19,648 bases of DNA from Acidobacteriota bacterium (GTDB taxonomy: Bacteria > Acidobacteriota > Aminicenantia > UBA2199), in the NCBI GenBank assembly GCA_021817755.1, contig JAKAGC010000005.1:1-19648 (forward strand), in the 5' to 3' direction. The notes under the pieces are model-generated. The model made no database searches. It was not told the origin of the DNA and saw nothing but the letters and a program-made list of their open reading frames with translations. Made by a program: the position numbers and the translations under genes. Of this stretch, positions 1 through 18,726 are shown piece by piece; within the stretch, counting starts at the first letter, position 1; every line of letters begins with the position of its first letter.

Positions 1-1213
1 AATTAAACTCTCTTCCAGACTCAAAGGACTTTGGAATACCTATAAAAGGACCCAAGGGGTTCTCCAGGCATTAAAGGCGATAAAACTGGATGAAAAACGA
101 AAAGAAGAAGAACTGGCTTTACAAAAATTCATCGATTCGGATCGGGCACGAAAAGCAAAATATGGAACGGTATTGCCGAAAATAGCTGAACTTTACGGGA
201 AAAAAGCACTTCGCGGACCTCATGATATGTTGCTCTATTACCTTTTACGCAATACAACCCTCCTCAATAATGCCTACGTGGCTTATGAGGCTTCGATAGA
301 ACGGAAAAAGAAAGATACGGACCGGGAAGCCAAATATATGGACCGAAGTTTCGATAAAACAAAAGAAGACCTGGAATTGAACTTGAAAAATTACGATGAA
401 ACAGCAGATAAAACGATTTTAAAAGGGATGTTACTGCGAGCGGCTGCATTAGACGAACAACACCGCATTCCGGCTGTGGATAAAATTCTTACGCTGGCTC
501 CGGATAAAGAAAAAGCAATCGATATTTTTATCGAAAAAGCTTACGGAACTTCAAAGTTAAATGATAAAGATTATTTAAAGAGCATTTTTGATAAAACCAC
601 TCTTGAGTTATCGAAATTGGAAGATCCATTTATTGAACTGGTGATTAATTTATATCCGTCATACCAGGAAAAGAGGGACAACGATAAAGCAGAGACGGGG
701 GTATTGGATGAGCTGTTGGCTCTATATATCGATGTAAAAAAAGAATTCGCAGGCAGCGATTTTATCCCGGATGCAAACAGTACCCTCAGGTTTACTTATG
801 GCCATGTACGTGGGTATTCGCCTGCTGATGCAGTTTATATGAAACCTTTTACCACTCTCACCGGTGTTATGGAAAAGAATACGGGTAAAGAACCTTTTGA
901 AGCACCTTCCAAATTAATCGAATTATATAACAAGCAAGATTTTGGGAAGGCCTGGAATCCAATTTTAAAAGATGTTCCGGTTAATTTTTTATATAATATG
1001 GATACCACAGGTGGGAATTCAGGAAGTCCTGTTTTTAATGCGAAAGGGCAGTTGGTAGGTTTGAATTTCGACAGGGTATTTCGTGCAACTATTAATGATT
1101 TCGCCTGGAATGAATCATACAGCCGTTCAATCGGAGTTGATATCCGTTATATTATCTGGTTCCTGGAAAAATTCGGTGGAGCGGGTCAACTGTTAAAGGA
1201 AATGAATCTATAA
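1..1213 (+). CDS. S46 family dipeptidyl-peptidase, DPP11-like (3' part, 5' end outside window)
   Basis: Serine exopeptidase that removes dipeptides from peptide N-termini in the periplasm. The reading frame is open from base 2 to the TAA at 1211-1213, about 403 codons. S46 enzymes are usually near 700 residues, so the N-terminal part with the catalytic His and Asp lies upstream of the window; the TTG at 173 is an internal Leu codon, not a start. Family signs are the helical middle region, the GGNSGSPV motif with the nucleophile Ser encoded at 1019-1021, and the closing SIGVDIRY and GGAGQLLKEM segments. Eighteen residues after that Ser is Arg (in GLNFDR). In DPP11 an Arg at this spacing selects Asp/Glu at P1, whereas DPP7 has Gly. 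Acidic P1 specificity is therefore inferred. The family call is firm; the subtype is likely. Confidence 0.93.
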   Translation, partial: IKLSSRLKGLWNTYKRTQGVLQALKAIKLDEKRKEEELALQKFIDSDRARKAKYGTVLPKIAELYGKKALRGPHDMLLYYLLRNTTLLNNAYVAYEASIERKKKDTDREAKYMDRSFDKTKEDLELNLKNYDETADKTILKGMLLRAAALDEQHRIPAVDKILTLAPDKEKAIDIFIEKAYGTSKLNDKDYLKSIFDKTTLELSKLEDPFIELVINLYPSYQEKRDNDKAETGVLDELLALYIDVKKEFAGSDFIPDANSTLRFTYGHVRGYSPADAVYMKPFTTLTGVMEKNTGKEPFEAPSKLIELYNKQDFGKAWNPILKDVPVNFLYNMDTTGGNSGSPVFNAKGQLVGLNFDRVFRATINDFAWNESYSRSIGVDIRYIIWFLEKFGGAGQLLKEMNL

Positions 1214-1230
1214 CAGCTTTAAACGTTTTT

Positions 1231-1264
1231 CCCGCCTTTTTTTCGTAAATAAAAAAAAGGCGGG
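1231..1264 (+). repeat. 13-bp inverted repeat just before the zinc-ribbon gene's ribosome site
   Basis: Perfect arms at 1231-1243 (CCCGCC followed by T7) and 1252-1264 (A7 followed by GGCGGG) with an 8-nt loop. The T and A runs are inside the stem rather than after it, and neither strand has a U-tract after the hairpin, so this is not a standard intrinsic terminator. The downstream arm ends one base before the GGAGG site at 1266-1270. The hairpin could therefore affect translation start of the next gene or protect an RNA end. Function unknown. Confidence 0.5.
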
Positions 1265-1275
1265 CGGAGGAATTC

Positions 1276-1506
1276 ATGGCAGTTATACAGCAAACGAGTT
1301 TAAAGTGCTTGGCTTGTGGAAGTACGGAGTTGGGATTCGGAAATCTTGCTACTCCTGCTAACGTTTTTATTCCTACCGGTATGTTTACCGTGTACGGTTT
1401 TAAAAGTCGTGCGTATGTGTGCCTGAAATGTGGAACTATCGGGCACTATTTACCAAAAGACACAGTAGAAAAATTAAAAGACAAACTCAGCTCAAGTTTG
1501 AAATAA
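1276..1506 (+). CDS. Small zinc-ribbon protein, function unknown
   Basis: A 76-residue protein with two CxxC knuckles, CLAC (residues 12-15) and CLKC (49-52), about 34 residues apart. This is the classic four-cysteine zinc-ribbon layout. Between the knuckles lies a hydrophobic, probably beta-rich stretch, and the C-terminus is a short charged helix (KDTVEKLKDKL). There is no signal peptide or membrane segment, so it is probably cytoplasmic. The ATG at 1276 has a strong GGAGG at 1266-1270 with 5-nt spacing. It lies 62 bp after the S46 peptidase and may be co-transcribed with it. Zinc ribbons of this size bind nucleic acid or proteins or serve as structural subunits; the sequence does not say which. 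Confidence 0.8.
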   Translation: MAVIQQTSLKCLACGSTELGFGNLATPANVFIPTGMFTVYGFKSRAYVCLKCGTIGHYLPKDTVEKLKDKLSSSLK

Positions 1507-1558
1507 TAATTTTGAATGTAATTCTATTGATTCGTAGATATGTTTTAATTATTTTCCC

Positions 1559-1600
1559 CGGAAGGTCATAAAACTATAAACGCTTTATGACCTTCTTCCG
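1559..1600. terminator. Hairpin terminator between convergent genes
   Basis: Perfect 12-bp arms at 1561-1572 (GAAGGTCATAAA) and 1584-1595 with an 11-nt loop. It sits between the end of the zinc-ribbon gene (1506) and the end of the minus-strand gene (1630), where a bidirectional terminator is expected. The U-tracts are weak on both sides, so termination efficiency is uncertain. Confidence 0.6.
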
Positions 1601-1629
1601 ATTTCTATTCTAATCTTATAAATAAAAAA

Positions 1630-2955
1630 TTAATAACCGAAAGGAGTGGATTTAAACCCACGACTCCACATGTAATGATTGAATGTTTGTTGATTGATAT
1701 TCATCATTACGGAATGATTTATCATGTTTTTAACCAATGTGGATTTAAGAGAACTCGATGATGAACCGCTGGATTGGGAAGATGAAGAATTTGAAAACGC
1801 GAGTTTTTGCAATTGACTGTAAATCTTTTCTTTTTCAGTGGCATTTCCATAACGAATAAGGGTTCGGAACGTAATCCAAAGACCTGGACAGGTCAAAATA
1901 TCATTGCGCTCTTCTATTGAAAAATTATTCCAGTTTTTCTGTAATAAATTACGAATATTATTAACCTGGGTAGTAGAAAGTTCGGCTGGGGATGCATTCC
2001 TGTTTTCCGACAATAGATTTGCAAACGCAGTCATCTCTGCATATGCTGTAGCTGCCATTTCGGTTAAGGGAGGATTATCTCCGGTAAGGATTTTACTCTT
2101 CATTTCCAATTGTTTACGTATTATTCTTACGACCTTATCGGTTTTATCGGATTCATTCAACCAACTGCGGGTTGTTTTCTCAAGCTCCTTTCGAAGCTCT
2201 TCCAATTTATGCTGGTCTGCTGTGAGAATAAAGGCTACCAATTTTGGGTAACTATCGTATTTTTTCAATGACTCGGCAGATTCATTTTTCCACCCTGAAA
2301 GAAGTTCTTCGAGGATGATTGTTTCCTGAGAGTGAGTAAATGGCGCACCAAGAGCGAACTCCAATACAAATAAAAACGCATTTGAATTTCTTATGTTTTG
2401 TCCTGTATTGGGTGTTGTAACCTGGGTTTCAGCAATAACATCACTGGATGGAGGTTTGGAAGTATTTCCTGAAGCAATGGAACCTACAAAAGCCTGGAGT
2501 AATTGTAATGCATACTGCCGGTTATAACCTTCTATTGGGGCACTGTAAGAAAACCAAAAAGCACTGGCTTTATCTTTTAATAAAAGAACTTCTGCCCGGA
2601 ATGGGGTTTTATTTTCAGTATAAGTGGAATAAAAATAAACAGATGTTCCTCCATCTTCACGGAAACCCTCTGCTTTAATATCGGGCATTCCTTGTTTGAA
2701 TAATGCGATCATTTGTTTGGCAAGAGCAGTAGGGCTTTTGGTCTTATCGAACGGAACAGACACAATCAGCAATTGCTCACTATTCGATGGATTAGAAATT
2801 TCGATATTGGTATCCTGGGCCTTTACTTGCCAATTGGCAGGATAATGAAAAGAAAATGAATCGGTAACATACTTTTTCCAGGTTGTACCGGCTTGCATAT
2901 TCATGCAAAGAACTACTATTAATATAAAGAATAATGGAAAATATAATCGTTTCAT
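1630..2955 (-). CDS. Secreted protein with PsbP-like N-terminal domain, function unknown
   Basis: A 441-residue protein. Residues 1-23 form a Sec signal peptide (MKRL, a hydrophobic core, then MQAG). The Cys in that core lacks a proper lipobox, so a soluble periplasmic or secreted product is favoured. Residues 26-160 look like a PsbP/DUF1795-type domain: it opens with a Y-x-SFHYPANW-type strand and continues with beta strands and a short helix, as in proteins that bind surfaces or small ligands. After a Ser/Thr/Pro linker (163-185) comes a helical region (190-385) and a Ser-rich stretch (389-402). The ATG at 2953-2955 has a CGGAGGAATT ribosome site. It is monocistronic, with its own near-perfect promoter. 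No enzyme motif was recognised. Confidence 0.8.
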   Translation of the reverse strand: MKRLYFPLFFILIVVLCMNMQAGTTWKKYVTDSFSFHYPANWQVKAQDTNIEISNPSNSEQLLIVSVPFDKTKSPTALAKQMIALFKQGMPDIKAEGFREDGGTSVYFYSTYTENKTPFRAEVLLLKDKASAFWFSYSAPIEGYNRQYALQLLQAFVGSIASGNTSKPPSSDVIAETQVTTPNTGQNIRNSNAFLFVLEFALGAPFTHSQETIILEELLSGWKNESAESLKKYDSYPKLVAFILTADQHKLEELRKELEKTTRSWLNESDKTDKVVRIIRKQLEMKSKILTGDNPPLTEMAATAYAEMTAFANLLSENRNASPAELSTTQVNNIRNLLQKNWNNFSIEERNDILTCPGLWITFRTLIRYGNATEKEKIYSQLQKLAFSNSSSSQSSGSSSSSLKSTLVKNMINHSVMMNINQQTFNHYMWSRGFKSTPFGY

Positions 2956-3000
2956 AATTCCTCCGTAAGTACCATTGTATAAAAGAGTTTTGAGGAAAAT

Positions 3001-3029
3001 ATTATAATCGAATCCGTTTTTTTTGTCAA
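3001..3029 (-). promoter_or_regulatory. Perfect-consensus sigma-70 promoter for the PsbP-like gene
   Basis: Read on the minus strand, TTGACA (3029-3024), a 17-bp spacer, then TATAAT (3006-3001). Both hexamers and the spacing are exact consensus. The transcript should start near 2994, giving a leader of about 40 nt before the ATG at 2955. A promoter this strong suggests constitutive high expression. Confidence 0.87.
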
Positions 3030-3189
3030 AAACAGGGAATGGTTGTCATTGGATTAATAAAAAATAAACACATAGGAGGTGTTAAAATAAATAGTAAATG
3101 GGTAACATTTGGGATAGGAGAATATTTCTATTTCAATTGATATACGGGTGATTCTTTTCCGATTAATTCAATTTCGATTGGGAATCCTC

Positions 3190-3218
3190 TTTAAAAAATG
3201 TTATAGGTCGGGTATAAT
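3190..3218 (+). promoter_or_regulatory. Probable promoter of the FHA / SEDS-PBP operon
   Basis: TATAAT at 3213-3218 with a TTTAAA hexamer (4 of 6 to TTGACA) 17 bp upstream at 3190-3195. The start would be near 3225, about 65 nt before the first gene. It lies in the 331-bp divergent gap 2956-3289, which otherwise holds the minus-strand promoter and AT-rich sequence. An AGGAGGT at 3074-3080 has no credible gene after it. Confidence 0.5.
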
Positions 3219-3289
3219 TATAAAATAAAAACGAATGGAGCGAGAATTACGATTATTAGAATTGTAATGATTATCAAACGGAGGATATG

Positions 3290-5170
3290 ATGCCAAATCC
3301 GAAGGAATCACCGAATACCCCGGAAAACGAACAATTGAAACCACCGAAAAATTACCTAAAAAGCATTATGCAGAAAGCGAAAAAAGCGGTGGATTTGATG
3401 ATCGGAAACGCGGAAGATTACACCCGCGAGGATTCGGGGGGGGACCTGAAGTTCGATCCACGTTGCATGATGAAAATAGATGTGACCTTTGATAAAAATT
3501 TCCTCCCAAAAGAAAAAGTAGTAAAGCTTAACCTTAGAGGATCTCGCTTCTTTAATGAAATTAAAGCGGATTTGAGGGAATTGAATACGATTTTTATCAT
3601 ATATCCGCATGCCTATGCCATCCAACTGGATACGCGAAAAGATCAATGGGAAAAAAAACTCATTCGCGAATTAAACGCGGATTATCAATTGGAACTGCAA
3701 ATGATTAAATTCTTCAATGAAGACGATATTGCGGGAATCTACCAACGAGCAGGTTTTGATCATATCCGAAATCCTTACCGCCTAAAAGAAAACGAATTAT
3801 TAATCATTGCAGGTGGATTTACCAATTTTAACTTTGACGGCCTCCATCTTTGTCAGATAGAAGGGGATGTTATTTCAACTGAAACGAGTGATGCCTCTCC
3901 TAAAAAATACTCGGAATATTATTTTACCCGGTTTTCCGAAAAAGCGGGAGCCTACTTCTATGTGGGAGGCGAATGGTACTATAACCTCTTTATTCCTGAA
4001 ATGCATGATTCGGATAATTCACTATTTTTCTCCCTGCGTATCGGGGATGACAGTAAAACTTTCAAATTTTTTAGCGATTCGAGGAAAGCCGGCATAGAGA
4101 TTCGCGGGACAATACGTTCGGAACATTCTTCAGAAAATGAAAAATTAATCTATCCGATAAATCCAGTTTATCTCTCGGGTTCAAACGCAAAAAATATCAC
4201 TCTTACTGCGATATACGATATCGACAAAGAAGAACCACCTTCGGTTGAAATTTTAGATAAGAGTAAACCTGTTTCCAATGAAAAATTCTCGGAGAAAGAT
4301 CAATTATTACTGGAAGAAATTCCCTTCCTGGAAGATGTGATGATCTTTCTTCCTGCTCCGAATCAACATGATATTCCTTCTTATATTATGTCGGTTGGAG
4401 ATGAGAAAAATGGGATCAAGTTTTTTGCCTCAAGCCAGGATAATGAAATCTCAATACTGGCGCCGGGCAGGGAGAAAAAATTCTATAAACGCCATATCGA
4501 TGACCCAATCGATTATTCGATAAAATTCGGAAAACTGGGGTACTCGATATCCAATGAATTCCTTTCCCGGTTTGGAGATAAGGAATTGAAAGTCTATTTT
4601 TCCTGGGGACTTAGCAACAATATGCCCAACCGGATATTCCTTAAAGAGGATTTTTATATTCTTGGGCGTGATCCGCTGGCAAATATGGAAGATACAATTC
4701 ATTCGAAATTTCAAAAAAACCTGATCGTCTTGAATACGGGGATTGAAAGTTTCTGGCGTATTGGGACTTCACGGGATCATGCCATTATACTAAGAGAATC
4801 TCCGGGAAAGTACCGTATTTTTAATATCTCAACCAGCTTCCCGGTCTATGTTGTTCGTAAAGAGGACCTGGAAAAACCGCTGATTTCGCCCTTTAAACTT
4901 GAACATACCGAAGTAAAAAATGAACCTGATAACCTCTATCCTTTCCTGAACCGTTTTTATAATGATCGTTCAAGAGCGAAAAAAATGATAAATGAACTTT
5001 CCAACCAGGCAGACCACCTGGAATTGGAACCGAATGACTGGATTATTATTGGGAATCGGGTGTATAAATTTATTATTCCTTTGCTAATGGAATCTGTTTT
5101 AAGCGATCGCGTCCAGATGAGCGTACTTCGCAAAATCCGGGAAAGCAGTTCTGTTTTAATTTCATCCTGA
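3290..5170 (+). CDS. FHA-domain protein, first gene of the wall-synthesis operon
   Basis: Cytoplasmic protein of 626 residues; no signal peptide or membrane helix. Two ATGs are adjacent (3287 and 3290). GGAGG at 3280-3284 is only 2 nt from the first but 5 nt from the second, so 3290 is preferred. Numbered from 3287, the C-terminal part is a forkhead-associated (FHA) domain. It has ILGRD with the phosphothreonine-contacting Arg at 461, SRDHA (495-499), the FNIS turn at 512-515, and a final LEPNDWIIIG strand (580-589). About 34 residues lie between GRD and SRDHA, longer than usual. Residues 1-430 are not a family I recognise. FHA domains bind phosphothreonine peptides. The stop lies only 7 bp before the next start, so the two genes are almost certainly translationally coupled. 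By position it resembles actinobacterial FhaA, next to rodA-pbpA. Confidence 0.85.
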   Translation: MPNPKESPNTPENEQLKPPKNYLKSIMQKAKKAVDLMIGNAEDYTREDSGGDLKFDPRCMMKIDVTFDKNFLPKEKVVKLNLRGSRFFNEIKADLRELNTIFIIYPHAYAIQLDTRKDQWEKKLIRELNADYQLELQMIKFFNEDDIAGIYQRAGFDHIRNPYRLKENELLIIAGGFTNFNFDGLHLCQIEGDVISTETSDASPKKYSEYYFTRFSEKAGAYFYVGGEWYYNLFIPEMHDSDNSLFFSLRIGDDSKTFKFFSDSRKAGIEIRGTIRSEHSSENEKLIYPINPVYLSGSNAKNITLTAIYDIDKEEPPSVEILDKSKPVSNEKFSEKDQLLLEEIPFLEDVMIFLPAPNQHDIPSYIMSVGDEKNGIKFFASSQDNEISILAPGREKKFYKRHIDDPIDYSIKFGKLGYSISNEFLSRFGDKELKVYFSWGLSNNMPNRIFLKEDFYILGRDPLANMEDTIHSKFQKNLIVLNTGIESFWRIGTSRDHAIILRESPGKYRIFNISTSFPVYVVRKEDLEKPLISPFKLEHTEVKNEPDNLYPFLNRFYNDRSRAKKMINELSNQADHLELEPNDWIIIGNRVYKFIIPLLMESVLSDRVQMSVLRKIRESSSVLISS

Positions 5171-5177
5171 GATCAGA

Positions 5178-8100
5178 TTGGGAATGGGAAATCATATTCA
5201 ACCGGTATTTTATATCTCCTGGGCAATCTGGCTTGCCTTTTCATTTACACTCATAGCACTGGATAAACGAAAACCGTTACGGTGGCCTCGGTTTCTTTCA
5301 TTTATAAGCCTTTCAATCTCTTCCATTGCTATCTTTACGCTTTTTCTTTTTTTGGTTCGAGATTTTAAATCGGAATCTTATTTTTTCATCGAAAACTACC
5401 GGTATCCAATTTCACGAGAGGCCGGGGAAATCACTATAGGAAACGATGAAAAGAAATCGGCTATTTGCCTGGAAAATCCATCTGCTGCTTCACAACATGT
5501 GAAATTGAATTTTAATGATTCTTATTTCCAGGTATCCAACATTAGCGAAGATAAAAAAGTGGATATAAATGGAAAATACTTAAATTCTTCCATTTTAAAA
5601 GAAGGGGATGAAATCCGTTTCGGAGAAAGAGAAACACTAAAAATAAAGAATATAGGTCCTCCCTATCCTCTTGGCCGTTCGATTACGGTATCGATCTCAG
5701 GGGATCGCATTAAGCAAAATAAAATTCTGACATTACACACTCTTTTAAATAAAAAAATCGATATCCGCAGGGATTGGGTGAGAGAAATCACAGCAAGCCC
5801 GGATCACCTTTCTTTTCCTTCGCGTTCCACAGAAGAAAACGGAGAGATACTTGCTTCTCTAATGTATGAACCGCATACACGGGTAATGAAAACTAGTATC
5901 TATTACGCCATCTTTTTTATTTTCCTTGCACTCATTTCTATTGGAATTTTTCTGTATTTAAAAAATCATCTAAACGGAGGTTTATTACTTTTAATGATAC
6001 TATCCCTTCCGTTTGCGGCAGGGTTGATATCATTCCGTCATGAAGGATACCTTCTTCTTGGATTTATTCCAATTATTTTTTATATCGAGCGGAAACGAAA
6101 AACACGTTGGAAATGGGGTTCGGTTTTGGTGGTGCTTCTTTTTATCACAGCGTTTACCATACCTTTTATGCTTGATCTTGAAGGGGATTTTATCATATCT
6201 TATACCAATTATAAAAATACTCCTCGAACGGGAAGTAGTGGTATTCAAATGAAGCGTGGAACGGATTCCTTCAATTTGTATGATAAAAAAGAAACCTTGC
6301 TCTATGGAAAAACCTATAATATGGTACTGGGGCATACGCAATACGGTCTTCATTCGGATAAGAATTGGATTACTCTTACACCCCGGGATCCTGAACGAAT
6401 AAAAGTTTCACCCTCTTTTCATTCGATAATCGATGACCTATCACTTGTAAAGCCAGGGAATGATTATATTTACTTAACATTTCCCCATGTATTTGAAGAA
6501 GTCTCTTCCACACAGTTGAAAGGAAAAGATAAATTTGAAATTAAAGGAAATGATGGAAGCAGTATCACTCTTTCTCGAAGCGTGAACCGTAATTATATCC
6601 TATTCAGAAATGGATTGATTTTTTTTATTATGGTGCCTTTTTGGTGTTTCCAATTATTTCGATTACCTATATCCAAGCGTTTTTTTTCACGTTTCTTCAA
6701 AAAAATACTTCCCGATATTATATCTCTAAAGTTTAAAATTTCGAATACGGGAGATGAGTTTCCGGGGAATATGATATTTAATGTAGTATATTTCCTGGTG
6801 GGAGTTGGGTATGTTCTTTTCGGAAGTTTGGCACTTTATAATAATAGTTTTTTGAAGAATTTTACGAAATTCAGAGAGAGCGCCCTTCCCTTATTCGTAC
6901 TACTCTTTATAGGAATCTTGTACATCAGCCGTCATAACCGTATTCTTGTTTTTCTTTACCGCCTTTTACGGCAAAAGACATATCATGTTCCTTTCCTGGT
7001 GTTTTTAGTTCTCATTTTTCCCGCCCGGCGAAGTTGGGTATTTTTAGTTGCAGGATTAGCATTTATTATATTCGTCTATGGGTTTCGATTACGGCGAGGA
7101 ATAATATATGAGTTCAGGAATGCACACAGTTATACGGTAGATATAAAAAAATTAATTGAAACTCCTGTATGTGATTTTGAGAGTAGGGAGAATAAGCGGT
7201 TGTTTTTCGGACTGGGAGCATTACTCGATAAAGCAGGATGGAATTGCCTGTTGGGAGCTGATTTGCTTCTGTTGCTGGCATTATTTTTTATCATTTTGCA
7301 GCTATTCCTGGGTGGAGAGTTGGGAGTATCGGTAGGTGGATTTTTATTTCTTCCCATCGAACTGGGAAAAATTCTATTGACTATCTATTTCGCTGACTGG
7401 GTTTCCCGAATCGACAAAGGCATGAAATTCAATGTATTATGGGTTTATGGACTAGTAATGATCCCATTTATATTGTTAGTGTTTTTTTTAAAAGATTTTT
7501 CACCGCTAACAGTCTTCATCTTTGTATTCTTCTATCATGTAATCCGAATCGATAAACCTGTATTATTTAAATTATCGCTAATAATACCCGGATTATTTAT
7601 TATCTGGATGGGAGCGTTGGATTTAAATAATTATGTTTTCCCCCGACGCTCACTTTCTGCCGCAGTATCGCTTCCAATTCTTTTTATGTTAGTTGGCTTA
7701 TGGAAGGATAGTATCCCTTTTTATTGGCTTCAACAGTTTGTGCATCAGATTTCCCAAAAATTTACCAAACGTTTTAGGAAGGTCCAGGAAACCGGTTTTC
7801 AAAAGGGTTTCCTGGTCGACGAAGTCAACAGAGTGAAAAGAATCTTTGTGTCGATCTTTCTAATTTTAGTTTTAGTGGGATCCAATTATTTTATTTATAC
7901 TCATCGAATTGGTGTGCCAAAAGTATTGGGAGACCGGATCAGTGTATGGTTGAATCCCTGGCAGGATTTTAATTTATCATATCAATACATAAACTCTGTG
8001 TGGCTGATGAAAGGGGCCGGGTTATACGGAAGGGGCATCGAGGCGTTGACGGATGCGTCGCAGGTCCCGGTAATCGAGAAAGACTTAAGTTTTTCATTAT

Positions 8101-11100
8101 TCACAGCAACAACCGGGATAATCGGTGCAGCACTTCTATTAATCACATTGTTTTTAGTGGCAGCAGCGGTTCGGAGGAGGGTATGTACGCCCTGGCACCG
8201 TTATGTATTAGAGTTTTTAGTTGTAATATTTACCGCACAATTTCTTGTTCCTGCGATGTATGTATCCGGGATACTCCCATTAATGGGGCAACCACTTCCC
8301 TTTATTTCCTATTCCAATAATATGCTATTACTTTTCGCACTTCCTTTTTCATTGCTGATGGTAATACTTTCTCGACCTTCGTCATCTCTCGTTTCATCGA
8401 CTCCGGCGAGGGTGTCTATTGTCGAGGAGCAGAATAAACAATATGATGTTTCTTCTCCCCCGGTAGACAAAACGTTTATTGGATTTGGATGGAAACGCTT
8501 TTTCTTTTTCTGTATCATTATATTAATATTGGTTTCCATGGTTGTTTTAAGACTCATATCTGTTTCCTTTCCAAGGGATAAAGAGGAAGGGACTCAGATC
8601 GTTTACCTGGAAAGTTTCACAAAAGATGGAAAGCTTTTTTCCATTCGACCTGTTGGTGATCGTTTCCGTTTAATTCCCACTATTGGAGGTATTTCGGTAG
8701 TAGGGAAGAAATCTGGGCTTTTATATGACATTGAGAACAATGATTTGATATTCGTGCAGGGCCGGAAGTTTCAGTTTAAAGTATACCCTGGCCGTTATGT
8801 TTACAAAGAAGTATATCGTCAGCCTTTAATAACAATGTTTCCAGGGCCATATTCAGTAAAAAATATCGGTGGATGGATTTCGAGGGATAGAACGAAAGTT
8901 CCGGTAAGGAAACAGGATAGAGAATTTTTAAAGAATCTTGCCATTGAATTGGGTTCGGAAGAAATGAAAAAATTTGTTTCCGGGAGTTCTATTAATCCTT
9001 ATCCATTGCTTGAATTGCAGTTTAAAAAAGGAAAATTAATCATTCTTTCCTCAGGTCCGAATATCACCCGGCTGAGAGGGTTCGGGAGGAAGGAATTCCT
9101 GCCGCATGTACCTATCCCAGTAAGGGCAGGAGATATAATCCGGCTTCATCCGGTTAATGTATCAAATGGAATAGAGCCGCTTGATTTGAAGTTTGATTTC
9201 AGTTCTTACGATGGAGCTCCTGCGCTTTCCATTTCCTATCGTGAGCGAGGGAATTTTCCATATACCACCCCACTTAAAGCAGAAGCCGCAGTCTTAAAGT
9301 CAATCGATACGGGGATGATTTATGAGGTCAGCCCCACAGATGAAACCCTTTTTATCGGGGAGAGGGGATTGTATTCATTTCATATGACTCTTTCCGATTT
9401 TACCACGCGTATGTATATACCTGACAGTGTACCTCAGGGGCGGGTATTGGAAATGAAAGAACTGCTTGAAAACCGAATGTATTTTCGCGAGAAAGGAGAA
9501 TTCCAAGCTGTAACAAATGATTTCTTGAAGCGAGTTCGGATTGAAGGATTCGATCAGAAAGGCAATTCCAGGTTGGATTCCTTTTTTAAAACCAATAAAA
9601 TCAAATGGCGGACCTTTAACAATATTAAACATTTCGGAACCTATGAACATAAAGCGATCGATTTAATCGATAAAATGCAAAGTAAAGGAGTTTTCTTTTA
9701 TTATAAACAGGAAATAGGAAAATTGAATTTCGCTTCCTCACGAAATAAAGCCGGAAAAGAAGCGCCTTCAATTTTCGAAGTTAAAAACAATCGTTTGTAT
9801 TTAAGTGGGGAGCAAGCACCCCGTCCTACTTCCCGTACTATCCAGCAGTTCCAAAAGCCTTTTGTTGTGGATTCTGAAAACAACATCCTTGCTTATAGTT
9901 CACAGATTAATGGACGATATAGACGGTTTTATACTTCCGATACGCCACCCGATATTCTATATCTACTGGGCAGTAACCCTATCGCGAACTGGGGATTGGA
10001 ACAGATTTTTTCTCCCCTTTACAAACAAGGTAAGGTCTCTCAAATACAATTGACAATCAATTCAAATTGGCAGCAATTGACTCTGGAAGCGATGCGGGAG
10101 CAGTTGTTATCAATACGGGATGATGAAATTAAGAGCGGGAAATATATCGCTTTAAATAATCATCTAATGGAAATTGAAGAGCGAATCGATGGATTAAAGC
10201 TGAAGTTAAAAAACGCGGACCGGGATTCCTCTTCTGAAATATCTACACAATTGGGAAAATCGCTTCGAGATGCTCAGGCAGTGAAAGAGGAGATGGACAA
10301 GGAGAAAAACAGGTTTTATGAAGCGGCTGTTATATTAATGGATGAATACGGGCGGATTTTAACGGCTGCATCCTATCCAAATACCCCCGATGCATTACAA
10401 GAGTTAAATCCTGAGATCACATCGCCGTTTTTACGGGATGTTAATCCCTATTTAAACCGGGCATGGAAATGGAAATACAATCCGGGTTCCACAGCCAAGA
10501 TACTCGATTCCATTGCTTTTTTAAGTGAGAGATCACGATTTCCTTACCTTGATCGTTTATTGACTTCTATAAACGCGTTTTCCCGGTTTCCCAGGGAGGA
10601 TTTGAAAGGCAGTGTAATGTTAAATGGTAAGGAAGTGCCCTTCAATCTCGGCAATTTTCAGGGGCACAATATACCAGGTGGGTTTTGTTCATTAGAGGAT
10701 GCCTTTGCCCATTCATACAACACTTATTTTTCGTATCTTGCGCTCCATATTAATCGTGTATTAACAGTAGACAGTATGGTTTATGACCATCCCCGGTCAT
10801 TTATAACGCGCGGTTCGATTCCTGCTGCCGATATATACCGGGATTATCCTATACTTGAATATGCCGAGCGGTTATTGATGAACAGGAAGATCGATTTATT
10901 GCAGAATCTTTCGGATACACCTATTCATTCAGAGATGCATCGATTACCCAATGATGCATTGATGTCAATCGAATCCGTATTCCCGGTGAATGCCTATACG
11001 CAAGCCAATGTCGCTCATTATTCGATCGGGCAGGGGGATTTCCAATTAACCGCGTTGCAGAATGCCCTTGTTTCGCTATCTGTACTTAATGATGGGGTCA

Positions 11101-11531
11101 TTTATTATCCATCCATAATACGTTCCGTTACTTTCCGTTCACCGTCTCTAATTTTTTCTTCCCCTGTTTCCCGTGTTTTTGAACCTGATCCGGCAAAACA
11201 AACCGTTCGGGTTTATTCTGCCGAGGTAGCGGCACAAATAAAAGAGGCTATGAAGCAGGTTGTATTGCGAGGAACAGCGGGGGGTGTATTTGGTGATCTC
11301 ATGAAGGGACGGACGTTTTATGCCAAAACTGGAACCGCAGAAACGGGGATATCGAAGGATAATGCTATATTTACCGGGTTTGTGGAGATGAAAGATGGAC
11401 AGAAGGTAGTGTTTTCGGTGATAGTACCGCGTTCCGGATTAGGGGCAAGGATAGCAGGAAAGCTCACAGCAGAAATCTTCCGGCGCATCCTTGATTATGA
11501 GAATAGTAAAGGGAATGCAAAAGAGAAATGA
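5178..11531 (+). CDS. Single-chain FHA-like / SEDS glycan polymerase / class B penicillin-binding protein fusion
   Basis: A 2117-residue bifunctional peptidoglycan synthase. Residues 1-60 are two membrane helices. Residues 80-157 are an FHA-like domain (ITIGND, SQH at 105-107, SNIS, DINGK, LKEGDEIRFG); the usual Arg after IG is Asn. Helices at 240-330 and a beta-rich segment (331-475) follow. The SEDS polymerase (about 530-1065) has LPIELGK (725-731), LNPWQD (925-930), the conserved Asp969 in KDLSF, and LPLMGQPLPFISY (1033-1045). After a 40-residue polar linker comes one helix (1105-1124) and a long pedestal. The transpeptidase has S1771-TAK, S1846-Y-N, IGQG (1950-1953) and K2050-TG, all intact. 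A predicted coiled coil (about 1640-1712) precedes it. RodA-PBP2 and FtsW-PBP3 are normally separate proteins in complex; here they are joined head to tail. The start is TTG 5178 or ATG 5184. Confidence 0.93.
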   Translation: MGMGNHIQPVFYISWAIWLAFSFTLIALDKRKPLRWPRFLSFISLSISSIAIFTLFLFLVRDFKSESYFFIENYRYPISREAGEITIGNDEKKSAICLENPSAASQHVKLNFNDSYFQVSNISEDKKVDINGKYLNSSILKEGDEIRFGERETLKIKNIGPPYPLGRSITVSISGDRIKQNKILTLHTLLNKKIDIRRDWVREITASPDHLSFPSRSTEENGEILASLMYEPHTRVMKTSIYYAIFFIFLALISIGIFLYLKNHLNGGLLLLMILSLPFAAGLISFRHEGYLLLGFIPIIFYIERKRKTRWKWGSVLVVLLFITAFTIPFMLDLEGDFIISYTNYKNTPRTGSSGIQMKRGTDSFNLYDKKETLLYGKTYNMVLGHTQYGLHSDKNWITLTPRDPERIKVSPSFHSIIDDLSLVKPGNDYIYLTFPHVFEEVSSTQLKGKDKFEIKGNDGSSITLSRSVNRNYILFRNGLIFFIMVPFWCFQLFRLPISKRFFSRFFKKILPDIISLKFKISNTGDEFPGNMIFNVVYFLVGVGYVLFGSLALYNNSFLKNFTKFRESALPLFVLLFIGILYISRHNRILVFLYRLLRQKTYHVPFLVFLVLIFPARRSWVFLVAGLAFIIFVYGFRLRRGIIYEFRNAHSYTVDIKKLIETPVCDFESRENKRLFFGLGALLDKAGWNCLLGADLLLLLALFFIILQLFLGGELGVSVGGFLFLPIELGKILLTIYFADWVSRIDKGMKFNVLWVYGLVMIPFILLVFFLKDFSPLTVFIFVFFYHVIRIDKPVLFKLSLIIPGLFIIWMGALDLNNYVFPRRSLSAAVSLPILFMLVGLWKDSIPFYWLQQFVHQISQKFTKRFRKVQETGFQKGFLVDEVNRVKRIFVSIFLILVLVGSNYFIYTHRIGVPKVLGDRISVWLNPWQDFNLSYQYINSVWLMKGAGLYGRGIEALTDASQVPVIEKDLSFSLFTATTGIIGAALLLITLFLVAAAVRRRVCTPWHRYVLEFLVVIFTAQFLVPAMYVSGILPLMGQPLPFISYSNNMLLLFALPFSLLMVILSRPSSSLVSSTPARVSIVEEQNKQYDVSSPPVDKTFIGFGWKRFFFFCIIILILVSMVVLRLISVSFPRDKEEGTQIVYLESFTKDGKLFSIRPVGDRFRLIPTIGGISVVGKKSGLLYDIENNDLIFVQGRKFQFKVYPGRYVYKEVYRQPLITMFPGPYSVKNIGGWISRDRTKVPVRKQDREFLKNLAIELGSEEMKKFVSGSSINPYPLLELQFKKGKLIILSSGPNITRLRGFGRKEFLPHVPIPVRAGDIIRLHPVNVSNGIEPLDLKFDFSSYDGAPALSISYRERGNFPYTTPLKAEAAVLKSIDTGMIYEVSPTDETLFIGERGLYSFHMTLSDFTTRMYIPDSVPQGRVLEMKELLENRMYFREKGEFQAVTNDFLKRVRIEGFDQKGNSRLDSFFKTNKIKWRTFNNIKHFGTYEHKAIDLIDKMQSKGVFFYYKQEIGKLNFASSRNKAGKEAPSIFEVKNNRLYLSGEQAPRPTSRTIQQFQKPFVVDSENNILAYSSQINGRYRRFYTSDTPPDILYLLGSNPIANWGLEQIFSPLYKQGKVSQIQLTINSNWQQLTLEAMREQLLSIRDDEIKSGKYIALNNHLMEIEERIDGLKLKLKNADRDSSSEISTQLGKSLRDAQAVKEEMDKEKNRFYEAAVILMDEYGRILTAASYPNTPDALQELNPEITSPFLRDVNPYLNRAWKWKYNPGSTAKILDSIAFLSERSRFPYLDRLLTSINAFSRFPREDLKGSVMLNGKEVPFNLGNFQGHNIPGGFCSLEDAFAHSYNTYFSYLALHINRVLTVDSMVYDHPRSFITRGSIPAADIYRDYPILEYAERLLMNRKIDLLQNLSDTPIHSEMHRLPNDALMSIESVFPVNAYTQANVAHYSIGQGDFQLTALQNALVSLSVLNDGVIYYPSIIRSVTFRSPSLIFSSPVSRVFEPDPAKQTVRVYSAEVAAQIKEAMKQVVLRGTAGGVFGDLMKGRTFYAKTGTAETGISKDNAIFTGFVEMKDGQKVVFSVIVPRSGLGARIAGKLTAEIFRRILDYENSKGNAKEK

Positions 11532-11852
11532 TTCTTTGACATTAATAAGTGATTATAATAAAGTAGTGTTATTTGAACCCTACTATATATGCCACAGAGA
11601 GCACAGAGACCACGGAGATTTTTTCCGATATTTACTTAATACTGCATTTTATACAAATACTTAAGTAACTCCGGCAATTTCCAGAATGGTTTCATCCCAA
11701 TTACTATTAGTTTAGATGTGTTTTGAGATTTCTTTAAGAAACTGTCTCAGGACCAAGTTTAAATCGAAATATGTTTATTCTATTTTATTTAGTAATGAAA
11801 TAATACTCATTGAAATATAAACAATAGAGTGATGCATTTATTTTCTTTAAAA
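11532..11852. other. Gene-free gap after the fusion gene
   Basis: No credible gene. It holds a TTGACA at 11536-11541, but the only TATAAT (11554-11559) is 12 bp away, too close for a sigma-70 promoter; a TAAAGT at 17 bp is weak. It also holds the 9-nt tandem repeat annotated separately. The rest (11620-11852) is AT-rich with no hairpin terminator that I could find, so transcript ends here are undefined. Confidence 0.6.
11593..11619. repeat. Three tandem copies of a 9-nt CACAGAGAN unit
   Basis: Units CACAGAGAG, CACAGAGAC and CACGGAGAT lie head to tail, followed by a T6 run. Similar CACAGAG-type arrays occur between genes in many environmental bacterial genomes, where they are dispersed and have no known function. 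Recognition here rests on the pattern alone. Confidence 0.7.
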
Positions 11853-12557
11853 TTACGGGCTTAGCGAATTAATTCCTTTTGATAGAATTTCTTGAAGCAT
11901 AACCTGTCTATCTCTTTCAAAATCTTCGGCATTTATAGGATTAACCCAGCGAATCATCTTAAACATCTGGGCAGGGAATGTTTTTAATAGATCAAAAATC
12001 AATAACTCTTCAATTGCTTCTTTTTGTTCAGCTTCATATATGATCTCATCCCATTTGAACGATAGGTTTTTGCAGATAAACCATATATCCGCAACATCCT
12101 TGGACTCAAGACGAGTGATAGCTGTAAGTTTATTTGAAAGAATGTTCCTCAAATTATCCACCCTGGAAAAAGAAGAAAAACTCTGGAATTCACCAAAATG
12201 GGGAATTTCAAGCTCGTTTACAAAATCGATTTTTAATTTAGACTGGAAATCCGCCTTGAATTTTTCGTGAAAATTTTCGGTATGAACATATATCTGCGTA
12301 AAATCTTCCGTCATAATACGTGTTTCAAGTATGAAAGAGGATTTAAGTTTCGCAATAATCTCCTTTATACTGTTGAGAAAATCGGACTTCCGGTGGACAA
12401 AAAAATCAAGGTCATCTGAATAACGGTGGTTCAAATAGAACCGACTCAAAGCCGTTCCCCCTGTAAGATAGAAATCATAATTTTCAAGTATTTTAAATAC
12501 TTTATCCTGCAGAATATACAGCTCTTTATAATATTCCATGCAATGTTTCCCGAACAC
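11853..12557 (-). CDS. AbiEii-type nucleotidyltransferase toxin
   Basis: Nucleotidyltransferase-fold protein of the AbiEii/AbiGii (MenT-like) family, about 230 residues, a usual length. The core signature is at the N-terminus: YLTGGTALS (residues 30-38), then the R-x-S-x-DLDFF metal-binding motif with Asp pair at about 48-51. Later comes the family segment NILSNKLTAITR...KDVADIWFI. Known members transfer nucleotides to RNA acceptors such as tRNA and stop growth, either as toxins or in phage abortive infection. The start may be ATG 12557 or the internal ATG at 12539 (MEYYKE). Either overlaps the end of the upstream partner gene, the layout of a co-translated toxin-antitoxin pair with the antitoxin first. 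All expected motif residues are present, so it is probably active. Confidence 0.87.
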   Translation of the reverse strand: MFGKHCMEYYKELYILQDKVFKILENYDFYLTGGTALSRFYLNHRYSDDLDFFVHRKSDFLNSIKEIIAKLKSSFILETRIMTEDFTQIYVHTENFHEKFKADFQSKLKIDFVNELEIPHFGEFQSFSSFSRVDNLRNILSNKLTAITRLESKDVADIWFICKNLSFKWDEIIYEAEQKEAIEELLIFDLLKTFPAQMFKMIRWVNPINAEDFERDRQVMLQEILSKGINSLSP

Positions 12558-12810
12558 GTTTATAACGTTCTTTTACACTCTTCTTCCAAATATATTTTAA
12601 AACCTCATCACCTAAGAATTGATAAAGACGTTTCATACCAAATATATCCACTAAATCATACCATCGTATTGAAACCAACAGCCTTGCTGTTATTTGATTT
12701 CGATTGAGATCTTTTATTTCTTTTTCTCCTATCAGGAATTTATAAAGATCATCTTCTGTATAATCGATATCATAATCCCAAAAAATGGATTTCAACTTTT
12801 CCTTATTCAT
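12526..12810 (-). CDS. Probable antitoxin partner of the AbiEii-type toxin (DUF6922-like)
   Basis: A 94-residue basic, helical protein. The opening (SIFWDYDID, then ITARLLVSIRWYDLVDIFG) resembles the short proteins that precede AbiEii-type toxins, in which a 'WD' stretch is followed by a long helix (DUF6922-like; matched by pattern only). It is not the classical AbiEi, which carries a winged helix and is about 200 residues. The gene ends at 12526, inside the toxin gene, so the two share 14-32 bp depending on which toxin start is used. The ATG at 12808-12810 has no clear ribosome site. A role in neutralising the toxin or repressing its own promoter is inferred from position. Confidence 0.72.
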   Translation of the reverse strand: MNKEKLKSIFWDYDIDYTEDDLYKFLIGEKEIKDLNRNQITARLLVSIRWYDLVDIFGMKRLYQFLGDEVLKYIWKKSVKERYKRVRETLHGIL

Positions 12811-12960
12811 GACTTGATTTTAACAAAAAATGAGAATAATATCCATTCTTTTTTAACTTGAAATATAGTATTTAAAAGAAATATTTTCTGGCTTAAGAAA
12901 AATTCTACCGGATCGATAAGAGAGCTAATTATTGTAAATCATAGACGAAAATAAAGTATA

Positions 12961-12984
12961 ATTCTTAAATAGAAATTTAAGAAT
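12961..12984. repeat. Perfect 10-bp AT-rich inverted repeat upstream of the toxin-antitoxin pair
   Basis: Arms ATTCTTAAAT (12961-12970) and its exact complement (12975-12984) around a 4-nt loop. It lies about 150 bp upstream of the antitoxin start, in the 401-bp gap 12811-13211. It could be an operator or a weak hairpin. No gene is seen between 12811 and 13211, and no convincing promoter for the pair was found. Confidence 0.45.
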
Positions 12985-13102
12985 AAATATCAATACTATT
13001 TTTAGGGAATGAAAAATGTATTTTTTTTGGTTTTCTCTTTTCCTATTTGGGTTGTCCCAATATATTATTCTATCAATATAAAAAATGTAAAATTTAAAAT
13101 AG

Positions 13103-13138
13103 AAAAAAGGGGTTAATCAACCTTGATCGATTAACCCC
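13103..13138 (-). terminator. Intrinsic terminator of the RiPP precursor gene
   Basis: Minus-strand transcript: stem GGGGTTAATC (complement of 13138-13129), a 10-nt loop, the complementary arm (13118-13109), then six U residues (13108-13103). This is a classic rho-independent terminator 74 nt after the stop codon of the precursor gene, showing that gene is a short monocistronic transcript. Confidence 0.85.
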
Positions 13139-13211
13139 CACTAAATTTGGTTTATTCCCTTAAAGGAAATTTTGAAAATCCGTGCGGACGGCGTCAATGA
13201 TTTGCATTATC

Positions 13212-13433
13212 TTATATGCAAAGCTGGTCAGGATATAAAGTCGCGTCACAGAATCTAAAACGGCAAGTAAAATTTGGACAAAATGTTACTTCCATGGTGA
13301 TTAAATAGGTGAAACAAGGTAACTGTTCCGAATCATTAGTCCCTCCAAGCACTTCTTTCATAGTGCCTAAGGATAAATTTGATACAGTCTCCTTGCTTAA
13401 TACTAATTTTTTTGAAAGGTTTTTTGTTTTCAT
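13212..13433 (-). CDS. RiPP precursor peptide, lanthipeptide-type with double-Gly leader
   Basis: A 73-residue peptide. Residues 8-20 (KKLVLSKETVSNL) match the K-L-x-L-x-KET-[IV]-x-x-L leader core seen in class I lanthipeptide and related GG-leader precursors. It is followed by MKEVLGG, with a double-glycine cleavage site at 30-31. The inferred core (32-73) has five Cys (40, 52, 57, 62, 72) and seven Ser/Thr, including adjacent T56-C57, which suits thioether rings. AGGAGG (complement of 13448-13443) lies 9 nt before the ATG. It has its own promoter and terminator. No dehydratase, cyclase or exporter gene is in the window, so the modification class is unproven. A Cys-rich secreted peptide with disulfides is the alternative. 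Confidence 0.75.
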   Translation of the reverse strand: MKTKNLSKKLVLSKETVSNLSLGTMKEVLGGTNDSEQLPCFTYLITMEVTFCPNFTCRFRFCDATLYPDQLCI

Positions 13434-13458
13434 GCTGAAAATCCTCCTATTATTTTAT

Positions 13459-13492
13459 CCGGGATATATTTTGTTTATGGGATATACCCCGG
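13459..13492 (-). promoter_or_regulatory. Leader hairpin in the RiPP precursor mRNA
   Basis: Ten-base arms at 13492-13483 and 13468-13459 with a 14-nt loop, ending 10 nt before the AGGAGG site. The only non-Watson-Crick position is a G-U pair in the minus-strand RNA but an A-C mismatch in plus-strand RNA, which fits a role in the minus-strand transcript. It may stabilise the mRNA or control translation. Confidence 0.5.
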
Positions 13493-13512
13493 TATTTGGC
13501 TGATGTCATTTT

Positions 13513-13541
13513 ATTATAGTATCATTAGGTAAAAAATTCAA
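13513..13541 (-). promoter_or_regulatory. Promoter of the RiPP precursor gene
   Basis: On the minus strand, TTGAAT (13541-13536), a 17-bp spacer, TATAAT (13518-13513). The start should be near 13506, giving a leader of about 72 nt that contains the hairpin at 13459-13492. Confidence 0.75.
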
Positions 13542-13630
13542 TCAATATATTAAAATTTTTACTTTTATAATGTCTTTAATTAAATGATATAAGATGTTAT
13601 TGATTCTCTTCAAGCTGAGCTTTCATTCTA

Positions 13631-13659
13631 TTGACAAAACAATAAAACAATCTTAAAAT
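13631..13659 (+). promoter_or_regulatory. Promoter of the secreted subtilisin gene
   Basis: TTGACA (13631-13636), a 17-bp spacer, TAAAAT (13654-13659, one mismatch). The predicted start near 13666 gives an unusually long leader of about 205 nt before the ATG at 13871. An 11-nt dyad (AAGCTGAGCTT, 13612-13622) lies just upstream and could be an operator. The 437-bp gap between the two divergent genes holds nothing else beyond the leader ORF noted under findings. Confidence 0.72.
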
Positions 13660-13870
13660 ATGCTTCTGGTTTTATATTGTGCGGTTTTCTTTGAAGAGGT
13701 TTTTTGTATGACTACATTTCTACATCACAGGTGCGGAAAGGTTTTAGGTTTCTTATGTATAAATAATACCTCCTTAAAATTTAAATCATAACCTCTTATA
13801 GAAACTCGATTTCTTTTCCTTTATTACTTTTTAAACGCATTACTTAAAAAAATAAACGGAGGAAAGAATA

Positions 13871-15169
13871 ATGAAATCAAAGATTTTATTAAGTCTGGTA
13901 ATTGGGGTATTTTTTCTGGTAGCAACCACCCCTTTCATCTATGGAAGCAGATGGATATTGAGTTCCAATTCGGGCCAATTGCCTGATGATCTTGCTTCTA
14001 AAGTTCAACAAGCAGGAGGCACATTAATCTCCACCCTTGGAGAAATGGGAGTAGCTTTTGCCGAATTCAGTAACCGTTCGGATGCAGAATCACTGGAAGC
14101 TCATGGAATGGATGTGATGGTGGATATAGAAGCTCAATGGATCCCGGAAGATCAAAATTCAGTTTTCATCGAAGACACAGGGATTCAAGCTGTTCCAGGG
14201 ACTTCGGATACATATTACCGTTATCAATGGCATCACCCTGTAATTCATTCGGATCAAGCATGGGCAGCAGGAGTTTTTGGGAATGGTGTACGCGTGGCAG
14301 TAATCGATACGGGTATCTGGTATAAACATCCGGATTTGAAAAATAATATCGACTATGCTGCAAGCATTTCATTGGTTCCCGGTATTACTGATTTTCTTGA
14401 TGATAATGGTCATGGTACGCATGTTTCAGGTATTATCGCTGCTGCGGCTAATAATTGGGGCTCTGTAGGCGTTGCTCCCCAGGCAACATTAATTGGTATT
14501 AAAGTATTCGATAGTACTGGCCGGGGGCCTATGAGCCGTGTGGTCCAGGGTATTTATCATGCGATAAGCCAAAATGCACAAGTTATCAATATGAGTCTTG
14601 GAACATATGTAAAGAAAAATGGTTATGCAGGAAGCTATACTGCGCGTGATGCACAGAAAATAATTAAATTGAATCGCAAAGCAGTTACTTATGCTACTTC
14701 TCATGGAGCACTTGTGGTGTGTTCTGCGGGAAACGAATCAATTGATATGGATCATAATCAGAATATTATTGGTGTGCCCTCGGAATGTGCGAATGCAATT
14801 TCTATCTCAGCAACCGGCCCGATCGGTTTGCAAGATTTCGATCATTTTGCTTCTTACTCCTGTTATGGTAATTCTGCAATCTGGGTAGCTGCACCGGGTG
14901 GGGATTCAATCAATTATCCGAATGCAGGCTGGTACTATGATATGGTGTTCAGCACAACGATAAATGGATGGTCATGGATGTCGGGTACAAGTATGGCTGC
15001 TCCGATGGTTTCAGGAGTAGCAGCACTCATCCTTTCCAAATATGGCCCGATGAGCCCTGGAGAACTTAAAAACCGCATTGCTCAAACTGCGGATGATCTT
15101 GGAAAACCGGGACATGATCCCTATTACGGAAGAGGAAGGGTTAACGCATACAGAGCGGTAACAGATTAA
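13871..15169 (+). CDS. Secreted subtilisin-family (S8) serine protease
   Basis: A 432-residue endopeptidase precursor. Residues 1-25 are a signal peptide. Residues 26-90 look like a short inhibitor-type propeptide (about 65 residues, mixed alpha/beta), followed by the catalytic domain. The full triad is visible: Asp146 in VAVIDTG, His181 in NGHGTHVSG, Ser374 in SGTSMAAP; the oxyanion Asn288 is in CSAGNES. There is no C-terminal sorting or membrane segment, so it is released to the periplasm or medium. The ATG has GGAGG at 13858-13862, 8 nt upstream. It is transcribed alone, with its own promoter and a strong terminator. It is divergent from the RiPP precursor gene; S8 proteases (LanP type) are known leader peptidases of lanthipeptides, so it is a candidate maturation enzyme, though a general degradative role is equally possible. 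Confidence 0.95.
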   Translation: MKSKILLSLVIGVFFLVATTPFIYGSRWILSSNSGQLPDDLASKVQQAGGTLISTLGEMGVAFAEFSNRSDAESLEAHGMDVMVDIEAQWIPEDQNSVFIEDTGIQAVPGTSDTYYRYQWHHPVIHSDQAWAAGVFGNGVRVAVIDTGIWYKHPDLKNNIDYAASISLVPGITDFLDDNGHGTHVSGIIAAAANNWGSVGVAPQATLIGIKVFDSTGRGPMSRVVQGIYHAISQNAQVINMSLGTYVKKNGYAGSYTARDAQKIIKLNRKAVTYATSHGALVVCSAGNESIDMDHNQNIIGVPSECANAISISATGPIGLQDFDHFASYSCYGNSAIWVAAPGGDSINYPNAGWYYDMVFSTTINGWSWMSGTSMAAPMVSGVAALILSKYGPMSPGELKNRIAQTADDLGKPGHDPYYGRGRVNAYRAVTD

Positions 15170-15200
15170 CGATTATATTGTTGTTCTATTCATATTTAAT

Positions 15201-15229
15201 AAAAAAGGAGCCTTCGGGCTCCTTTTTTT
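15201..15229 (+). terminator. Intrinsic terminator of the subtilisin gene
   Basis: Stem of A6 then GGAGCC (15201-15212), UUCG tetraloop closed by C-G (15213-15216), complementary arm, then a U7 run ending at 15229. It is 32 nt after the stop codon and is a textbook rho-independent terminator, so the following kinase gene needs its own promoter. Confidence 0.95.
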
Positions 15230-15267
15230 CTATTTACTTTTATTATCATTTATGGCTAAATATATTC

Positions 15268-15723
15268 GTGAAAGAAAAAAATAAAAGCCAAAATGTTTTG
15301 TATCTTTTGTTAGTCGGATTGATATTGATAACCTGTTCTATCCTATGGGGACTTGATCCGGAGATGGATATCCGGCAATACAATGCGGAAGTGTTTCTAA
15401 CGGAAAATGGTTTGCCTCAGAGTTCGGTTCTGTCTATCATACAAACATCGGATGGTTATTTATGGATGGGCACGTATGAAGGAATCGCACGGTTTGATGG
15501 GATTCATTTTCGTATTTTCGATACCTCGAATACACCGGAAATGACCAGCAACCGGATTCGTGTTCTGCTTGAAGATAAACATAATACTCTTTGGATCGGT
15601 ACATCAGGAGGGATATTAAGTTTGTCTGAAGGTGTTTTCCATTGCTATACCATAGAGGACGGATTATCAAGTAATGCAATTTCCTGTCTGTATGAAGATA
15701 AAAAGGGTACTCTTTGGATCTGA
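15268..15723 (+). pseudogene. 5' part of a propeller-sensor Ser/Thr kinase gene, ended by an in-frame TGA
   Basis: N-terminal 151 residues of a large membrane sensor whose frame continues after the stop to 18540. From the GTG at 15268 the protein begins with a basic KEKNK stretch and a hydrophobic core (LYLLLVGLILITC), a good signal peptide; the frame is open upstream to 15178, but that part overlaps the terminator at 15201-15229. No clear ribosome site is seen, so the start is uncertain. Three Reg_prop propeller blades follow, each ending in a WIGT-type motif (LWMGTYEG, LWIGTSGG, LWI-stop). The third breaks exactly where Gly is expected: TGA at 15721-15723 in place of a GGA-type codon. The next codons read TTRGF, as a propeller blade would. 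One base change (GGA to TGA), a sequencing error or readthrough would all explain it. Confidence 0.8.
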
Positions 15724-18540: not shown

Positions 18541-18580
18541 GGATTACACCGGTCGGTCCAATTTTAATTGGAATTGGCTG

Positions 18581-18609
18581 TTGATTCTTACCCAATTTTC
18601 TTGTATTAT
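18581..18609 (+). promoter_or_regulatory. Promoter of the aminotransferase gene
   Basis: TTGATT (18581-18586), a 17-bp spacer, TATTAT (18604-18609). The predicted start near 18617 leaves a 110-nt leader. An interrupted dyad with 7-bp arms (TCCAATT at 18557-18563, AATTGGA at 18566-18572) sits just upstream of the -35 box and could bind a regulator. Confidence 0.65.
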
Positions 18610-18628
18610 AAAGGGTAAAATAAGTCAT

Positions 18629-18698: not shown

Positions 18699-18726
18699 GA
18701 ATAAATAAAAAGAAGGAGAAGTGCCA

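Follow-up and report, generated by a model that had tools for sequence, protein, structure and literature searches.

Can a SEDS polymerase and a class B penicillin-binding protein (PBP) be made naturally as a single chain, and what would such a chain contribute to the cell that makes it? The question is raised by an open reading frame (ORF) in a 19,648-nucleotide stretch of DNA (hereafter the window) from an Acidobacteriota bacterium (Aminicenantia; UBA2199; assembly GCA_021817755.1, contig JAKAGC010000005.1, positions 1 to 19,648 of the forward strand). A preliminary description had assigned one uninterrupted frame to two enzymes, a SEDS polymerase joined to a class B PBP, and both were recognised here by fold as well as by profile. 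The ORF was called from TTG 5178 to 11531 on the plus strand, open over 2117 codons; ATG 5184 is the likelier start because the proteins of relatives begin at the matching position, which gives a gene at 5184..11531 (+) encoding 2115 amino acids (aa). The ORF matches the Pfam profiles FHA, FTSW_RODA_SPOVE and Transpeptidase, all above their cut-offs, and carries both catalytic domains of a natural SEDS-PBP fusion in one frame. From these sequence comparisons we propose, with a probability of roughly 0.75, that the gene product acts as an accessory peptidoglycan synthase, third beside the two canonical pairs, with a divergent SEDS polymerase joined to the class B PBP that partners it.

The fused frame and its relatives

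The fused frame is confirmed to be real and conserved. The source assembly is fragmented (4.74 Mb in 811 contigs, 79.6% complete), as would suit an assembly or sequencing error that merged two genes. Against such an error, the separate assemblies of three other species cross the junction in frame, two genomes hold fused and separate copies as distinct paralogues, and the stop-free run at the fusion spans 2123 codons at about 38-39% GC, the longest run in 200 shuffles at that composition being 183. Neither the assembly nor the fused relatives show a stop between residues 1060 and 1110, where one was looked for. Because three genomes of the same genus carry the same fusion and the fused forms make up one clade, the fusion is not an artefact; the merging of two genes by error, to which we assign next to no probability, was rejected on the shared in-frame junction, the tree clade and the length of the stop-free run.

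A scan of 84,980 species, one genome per species, with two short peptide patterns returned 12 loci, all from Candidatus Aminicenantes or Acidobacteria/Acidobacteriota. Of the 142 class genomes, 14 gave a match in a SEDS alignment search at 1e-15. In G020, G060 and G093 the match is confined to frames of 328-409 aa resembling ordinary SEDS proteins, which leaves 11 carriers of the family; a twelfth genome (G010) holds the PBP half only, on a contig that starts there. Six genomes, all of the class, matched in a phylum sample of 396 in which two candidates per genome at most were scored and for which the share lying outside the class is not stated. At 1e-6, SEDS matches were found in 141 of the 142 class genomes, and at least three such matches in 14, namely the 11 family carriers and G064, G072 and G095.

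Complete fusions are encoded in the window (2115 aa), in G001:C127 (2041 aa) and in G002:C539 (1938 aa); in G003 the frame runs past the junction and is cut off by the contig end after 1170 residues, and another contig carries the matching PBP end. At eight loci (G001:C161, G002:C529, G016, G041, G047, G037, G044 and G050) SEDS and PBP are encoded by two adjacent genes that overlap or are separated by 12 bp at most, and in G054 the two genes lie on different contigs. Two genomes, G001 and G002, thus carry the fused form plus an unfused paralogue each. In midpoint-rooted trees of the shared parts (15 and 14 rows), the four fused rows formed a single clade, with support of 98/99 for the SEDS part and 88/97 for the PBP part. 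In the SEDS tree it falls within the split forms (enclosing branches 95/94 and 90/85), and in the PBP tree the three groups of the window's family have no settled branching order. Most simply, the comparison of loci and the trees point to a fusion of single origin in this Aminicenantes genus, in which adjacent genes may have lost the intervening stop and start.

Long SEDS frames in Aminicenantes reach up to 1011 aa among the matches listed. Five such loci, from G036, G053 and G059, have 66-72% GC and look like chance extensions, since the ORF tables place PBP or Mur genes in other frames. A search of plasmids for fusions returned three records only, each a weak match to the PBP half, and none was found in a search of phages.

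Two catalytic halves in one chain

The SEDS polymerase domain occupies residues 525-1072 (6750..8393, +), where both the profile and the fold were found; the preliminary description had put it at residues 530-1065. The PF01098 match in the window scored 59.2 bits against a curated cut-off of 26.4, and all 13 aligned family members matched at E <= 0.1. All 13 aligned rows, the window included, keep the equivalents of E. coli RodA K117, E114, D159, R210, P257, D262 and S344, and the catalytic loop P964...D969 (8067..8084, +) is equivalent to RodA Pro257/Asp262. In vitro, P257A and D262A abolish the activity of E. coli RodA and E258A, H260A and T261S do not (PMC10449877, in excerpt); it is positions 258, 260 and 261, tolerant of mutation in E. 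coli, that are replaced in the fusion family. The Asp of the NPWQD motif was considered as the catalytic residue and ruled out, as the E. coli alignment and the excerpted text of PMC10449877 both lead to D969.

A polar linker, predicted to be cytoplasmic, follows at residues ~1069-1100 (8382..8477, +), and the PBP membrane helix lies at residues ~1105-1130 (8490..8567, +). The join had been described as topologically sensible, and we agree: the SEDS C-terminus would be cytoplasmic, and the polar linker leads into the PBP membrane helix. Between that helix and the pedestal lies a beta-rich insertion of ~420 residues (~1131-1554; 8568..9839, +) belonging to no recognised family. Profile-profile comparison gave no support for FHA domains in it (best 9% against either FHA region), and two of its pieces scored 28% against each other. 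The pedestal and transpeptidase fold of a class B PBP occupies residues ~1555-2110 (9840..11507, +), with SxxK at 1771-1774, SYN at 1846-1848 and KTGT at 2050-2053; the SxxK, SxN and KTG motifs are kept in 13/13 aligned members, and the Transpeptidase profile scored 85.8 bits in the window (cut-off 22.1). No match to the GT51 family was found in the fusion at E <= 0.1, so that with its N-terminal membrane helix this half has the make-up of a class B PBP. Its best structural matches are PbpA-like proteins of Actinobacteria.

The layout of SEDS domain, linker and PBP given in the preliminary description holds; the N-terminal FHA-like extension, the insertion of ~420 residues and an upstream FHA gene had been overlooked. 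The FHA-like beta domain follows the second membrane helix at residues 68-200 (5379..5777, +; Pfam FHA at 85-149), and a second beta domain, predicted to be extracytoplasmic, spans residues 337-470 of the SEDS half (6186..6587, +). FHA domains that bind phosphothreonine carry the motif residues GR, SxxH and N. In the 12 aligned rows that hold this region of the fusion, the Arg of GR is absent throughout, the Ser of SxxH is variable, and the His (12/12), the Asn (10/12) and the next Ser (12/12) are kept. The domain at 68-200 lacks the phosphothreonine-binding motif in this form, and it is probably periplasmic and not phosphothreonine-binding.

Two other SEDS genes of the genome score higher (331 and 267 bits): one is found on contig C269 beside a PBP gene and the genome's single strong MreB match, and the other on contig C58 at ~4.4 kb from a PBP gene. 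Since canonical RodA-PBP2 and FtsW-PBP loci lie elsewhere in the genome, the fusion constitutes a third pair. It does not score as an elongasome RodA-PBP2 (62.6 vs 336.7 bits for rodA_shape and 89.7 vs 455 for pbp2_mrdA). The earlier comparison with RodA-PBP2 and FtsW-PBP3 needs this addition: the pair is divergent and is neither the cell's RodA-PBP2 nor its FtsW-FtsI.

Both folds are shared with E. coli RodA-PBP2 (8tj3), T. thermophilus RodA-PBP2 (6pl5) and FtsWIQBL (8bh1, 8p1u), as are the catalytic Asp/Pro, several cavity residues and the cytoplasmic position of the SEDS C-terminus and the PBP N-terminus. Those systems consist of separate natural chains, and the fusion adds the FHA-like, second beta and PBP insertion domains. 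Class A PBPs likewise join a polymerase and a transpeptidase in one chain, with GT51 in place of SEDS. That SEDS and PBP partners are normally separate proteins is true of the canonical systems and needs amending otherwise, for natural single ORFs encoding SEDS-PBP fusions are already in print, with the Rhodococcus sp. RHA1 genome cited (PMC10449877, in excerpt). The fusion is thus not new as a kind; the Rhodococcus-type ORF, which we could compare by that statement only, likewise encodes a polymerase and a class B PBP and belongs to a different phylum. The resemblance to engineered SEDS-linker-PBP constructs, also remarked on earlier, is fair: excerpts of two papers describe a synthetic SEDS-PBP fusion with an 8-residue linker (PMC10449877) and a RodA-(GGGS)3-PBP2 fusion that was largely functional in E. 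coli (PMC6207328). Searches of the literature on natural fusions and this family gave no description of the Aminicenantes form, PMC10449877 being the one source met there that reports natural fusions, and what appears to be new here is the lineage, the divergent domain-rich family, the cassette, and the presence of fused and unfused paralogues in one genome.

The upstream gene and the surrounding genes

The fusion gene is preceded, 13 bp upstream of ATG 5184, by ORF A (3287..5170, +), which encodes a soluble protein of 627 aa with a C-terminal FHA-type region (residues ~452-596; 4640..5074, +) bearing a GR / SRxH / NxS motif. Residues G460 R461, S495 R496, H498, N513 and S515 are the same in every one of the 12 aligned rows, all of which hold the phosphothreonine-binding FHA motif. 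Pfam FHA gave no match to the window's ORF A at E <= 0.5 and matched five of the 12 members weakly (best E 0.0017). A homologue lies directly upstream of the SEDS gene in all 12 loci with the upstream flank present; those of L032 and L035 are too divergent for a BLAST link and were assigned by alignment and motif. With a search model built from most of the ORF A rows counted, ORF A was found in 11 of the 142 class genomes: G052 and all but one of the 11 family carriers, the exception having a contig that ends inside the SEDS gene. In G052:C52 an ORF A homologue is followed by a short FHA-like SEDS fragment only, which may be a cassette in decay or cut short.

In three of the four g13 loci (one genus, family f5) a kinase gene overlaps the stop of the PBP gene, and in the fourth (L027) one small ORF lies between the two. 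In the three f5 loci the gene that directly follows and overlaps the PBP gene encodes a kinase-like + FGE-sulfatase protein (L036 13370-15181, L035 3154-4929 and L038 3642-5507), and the N-terminal lobe of the kinase-like domain is unmatched in Pfam. Kinase matches are common, at 10-47 per genome in 11 genomes. Proximity of a kinase as proof of phospho-regulation was rejected for the window, given 32 kinase matches in 4.74 Mb.

The arrangement recalls the mycobacterial operon containing fhaA, fhaB, rodA, pbpA, pknA, pknB and a phosphatase gene (PMC11898655, in excerpt), in which a soluble protein with a C-terminal FHA domain is likewise encoded beside SEDS and PBP genes. The likeness is one of arrangement only: the mycobacterial genes are unfused, and here a kinase is directly adjacent in the three f5 loci only. 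No phosphatase was seen in the flanks examined, and no FhaA match to ORF A in a PDB sequence search or Pfam scan.

Elsewhere in the window, a 441-aa ORF at 1630-2955 (-) matches no Pfam family above cut-off. The gene at 11853-12557 (-), whose start is overlapped by a 94-aa ORF, encodes an AbiEii-type nucleotidyltransferase (60.9 bits), the toxin component of type IV toxin-antitoxin systems, and a subtilase at 13871-15169 (+) scored 190.6 bits with the mycosin model of type VII secretion, below its cut-off of 278.75. A Reg_prop ORF (15178-15723, +) and a Reg_prop/Y_Y_Y/Ser-Thr kinase ORF (15784-18540, +) lie in the same frame with a stop between them, and may be one interrupted sensor-kinase gene.

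How the fused synthase may work

In the proposed accessory synthase, the SEDS half would polymerise lipid II via Asp969, the linker would hold the PBP membrane helix beside the polymerase, and cross-linking of the strand would fall to the C-terminal transpeptidase through Ser1771; the cassette with the soluble FHA protein ORF A would probably couple the synthase to Ser/Thr phosphorylation. As far as the sequence tells, the chemistry of the fusion may be ordinary; its architecture is unusual. Several observations weigh against this proposal. By sequence the SEDS match is weak, at 64 bits where the canonical genomic copies reach 331 and 267. The loop-2 Trp that E. coli RodA keeps (W102) is Gly in 13/13 family rows and Trp in 10/10 canonical SEDS rows, the position of RodA Gln111 is Leu/Phe in the window's branch, and RodA Arg48 and Arg109 have no placed equivalent in the alignment. 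Catalytic loop residues 965-968 have a predicted local confidence (pLDDT) below 50 in the predicted structure. The periplasmic placing of the FHA-like domain needs a fourth helix (~286-307), for which the hydropathy scan gave no call in the window's own protein. As to phosphorylation, the window's kinase is 4.3 kb away and is one of its genome's 32 kinase matches; the other flanks examined hold no adjacent kinase, and none is conserved beside the cassette. RodA Arg101 is not kept in the family either, and position 101 varies in canonical rows too. Separately, the SEDS part of a second predicted-structure model, which bears on the interface of the two halves, was of low confidence. The W102A change lowers the activity of E. 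coli RodA (PMC10449877, in excerpt), and the loop-2 Trp is a functional residue, not a fold-defining one, so its loss lowers the claim of canonical activity.

These losses might mean that ordinary peptidoglycan strands are no longer the product of the SEDS half, which would have become regulatory or turned to another undecaprenyl-linked glycan, with the PBP as the sole wall enzyme. We consider this unlikely, as the equivalents of Asp262, Pro257, Arg210 and Asp159, among the placed activity residues, are kept in 13/13 rows, and the partner PBP retains all transpeptidase motifs. A similarly low probability attaches to cutting of the chain in the linker, which would yield an ordinary two-chain SEDS-PBP complex and leave the fusion of little consequence. 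Linkers do differ in length and sequence between most fused relatives (those of G001 and G003 are alike), and minor cleavage of the synthetic RodA-PBP2 fusion was observed in E. coli (PMC6207328, in excerpt); yet the four linkers share no cleavage site conserved by eye, and the fusion has persisted despite divergence to ~50% identity. The four fused genes were also scanned for in-frame starts preceded within 22 bases by a Shine-Dalgarno-like 4-mer, and no such start was found where separate PBP genes begin. The three candidates returned lie at window residue 1079, where the 4-mer touches the start codon, and at L024 residue 1097 and L026 residue 1098, beyond the PBP membrane helix. The 1:1 stoichiometry forced by a fusion holds only if the chain is uncleaved.

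Much more tentatively, the cassette of soluble FHA sensor, SEDS protein with periplasmic beta domains and class B PBP could represent an undescribed class of dedicated wall synthase in Aminicenantes that is tuned by phosphorylation, with no partner-assembly step in the fused branch and an altered lipid-binding loop, serving a special wall layer or structure and not the general cylinder or septum; we regard this extension as possible and doubtful. SEDS-PBP coupling has so far been studied via artificial linked constructs, and the fused form and its unfused paralogue in one genome, as in two relatives of the window, amount to an evolutionary experiment on a non-dissociating complex. The family also offers a SEDS protein with its catalytic core intact but without a loop residue that matters in E. 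coli, and it may provide a phospho-sensing arrangement outside Actinobacteria.

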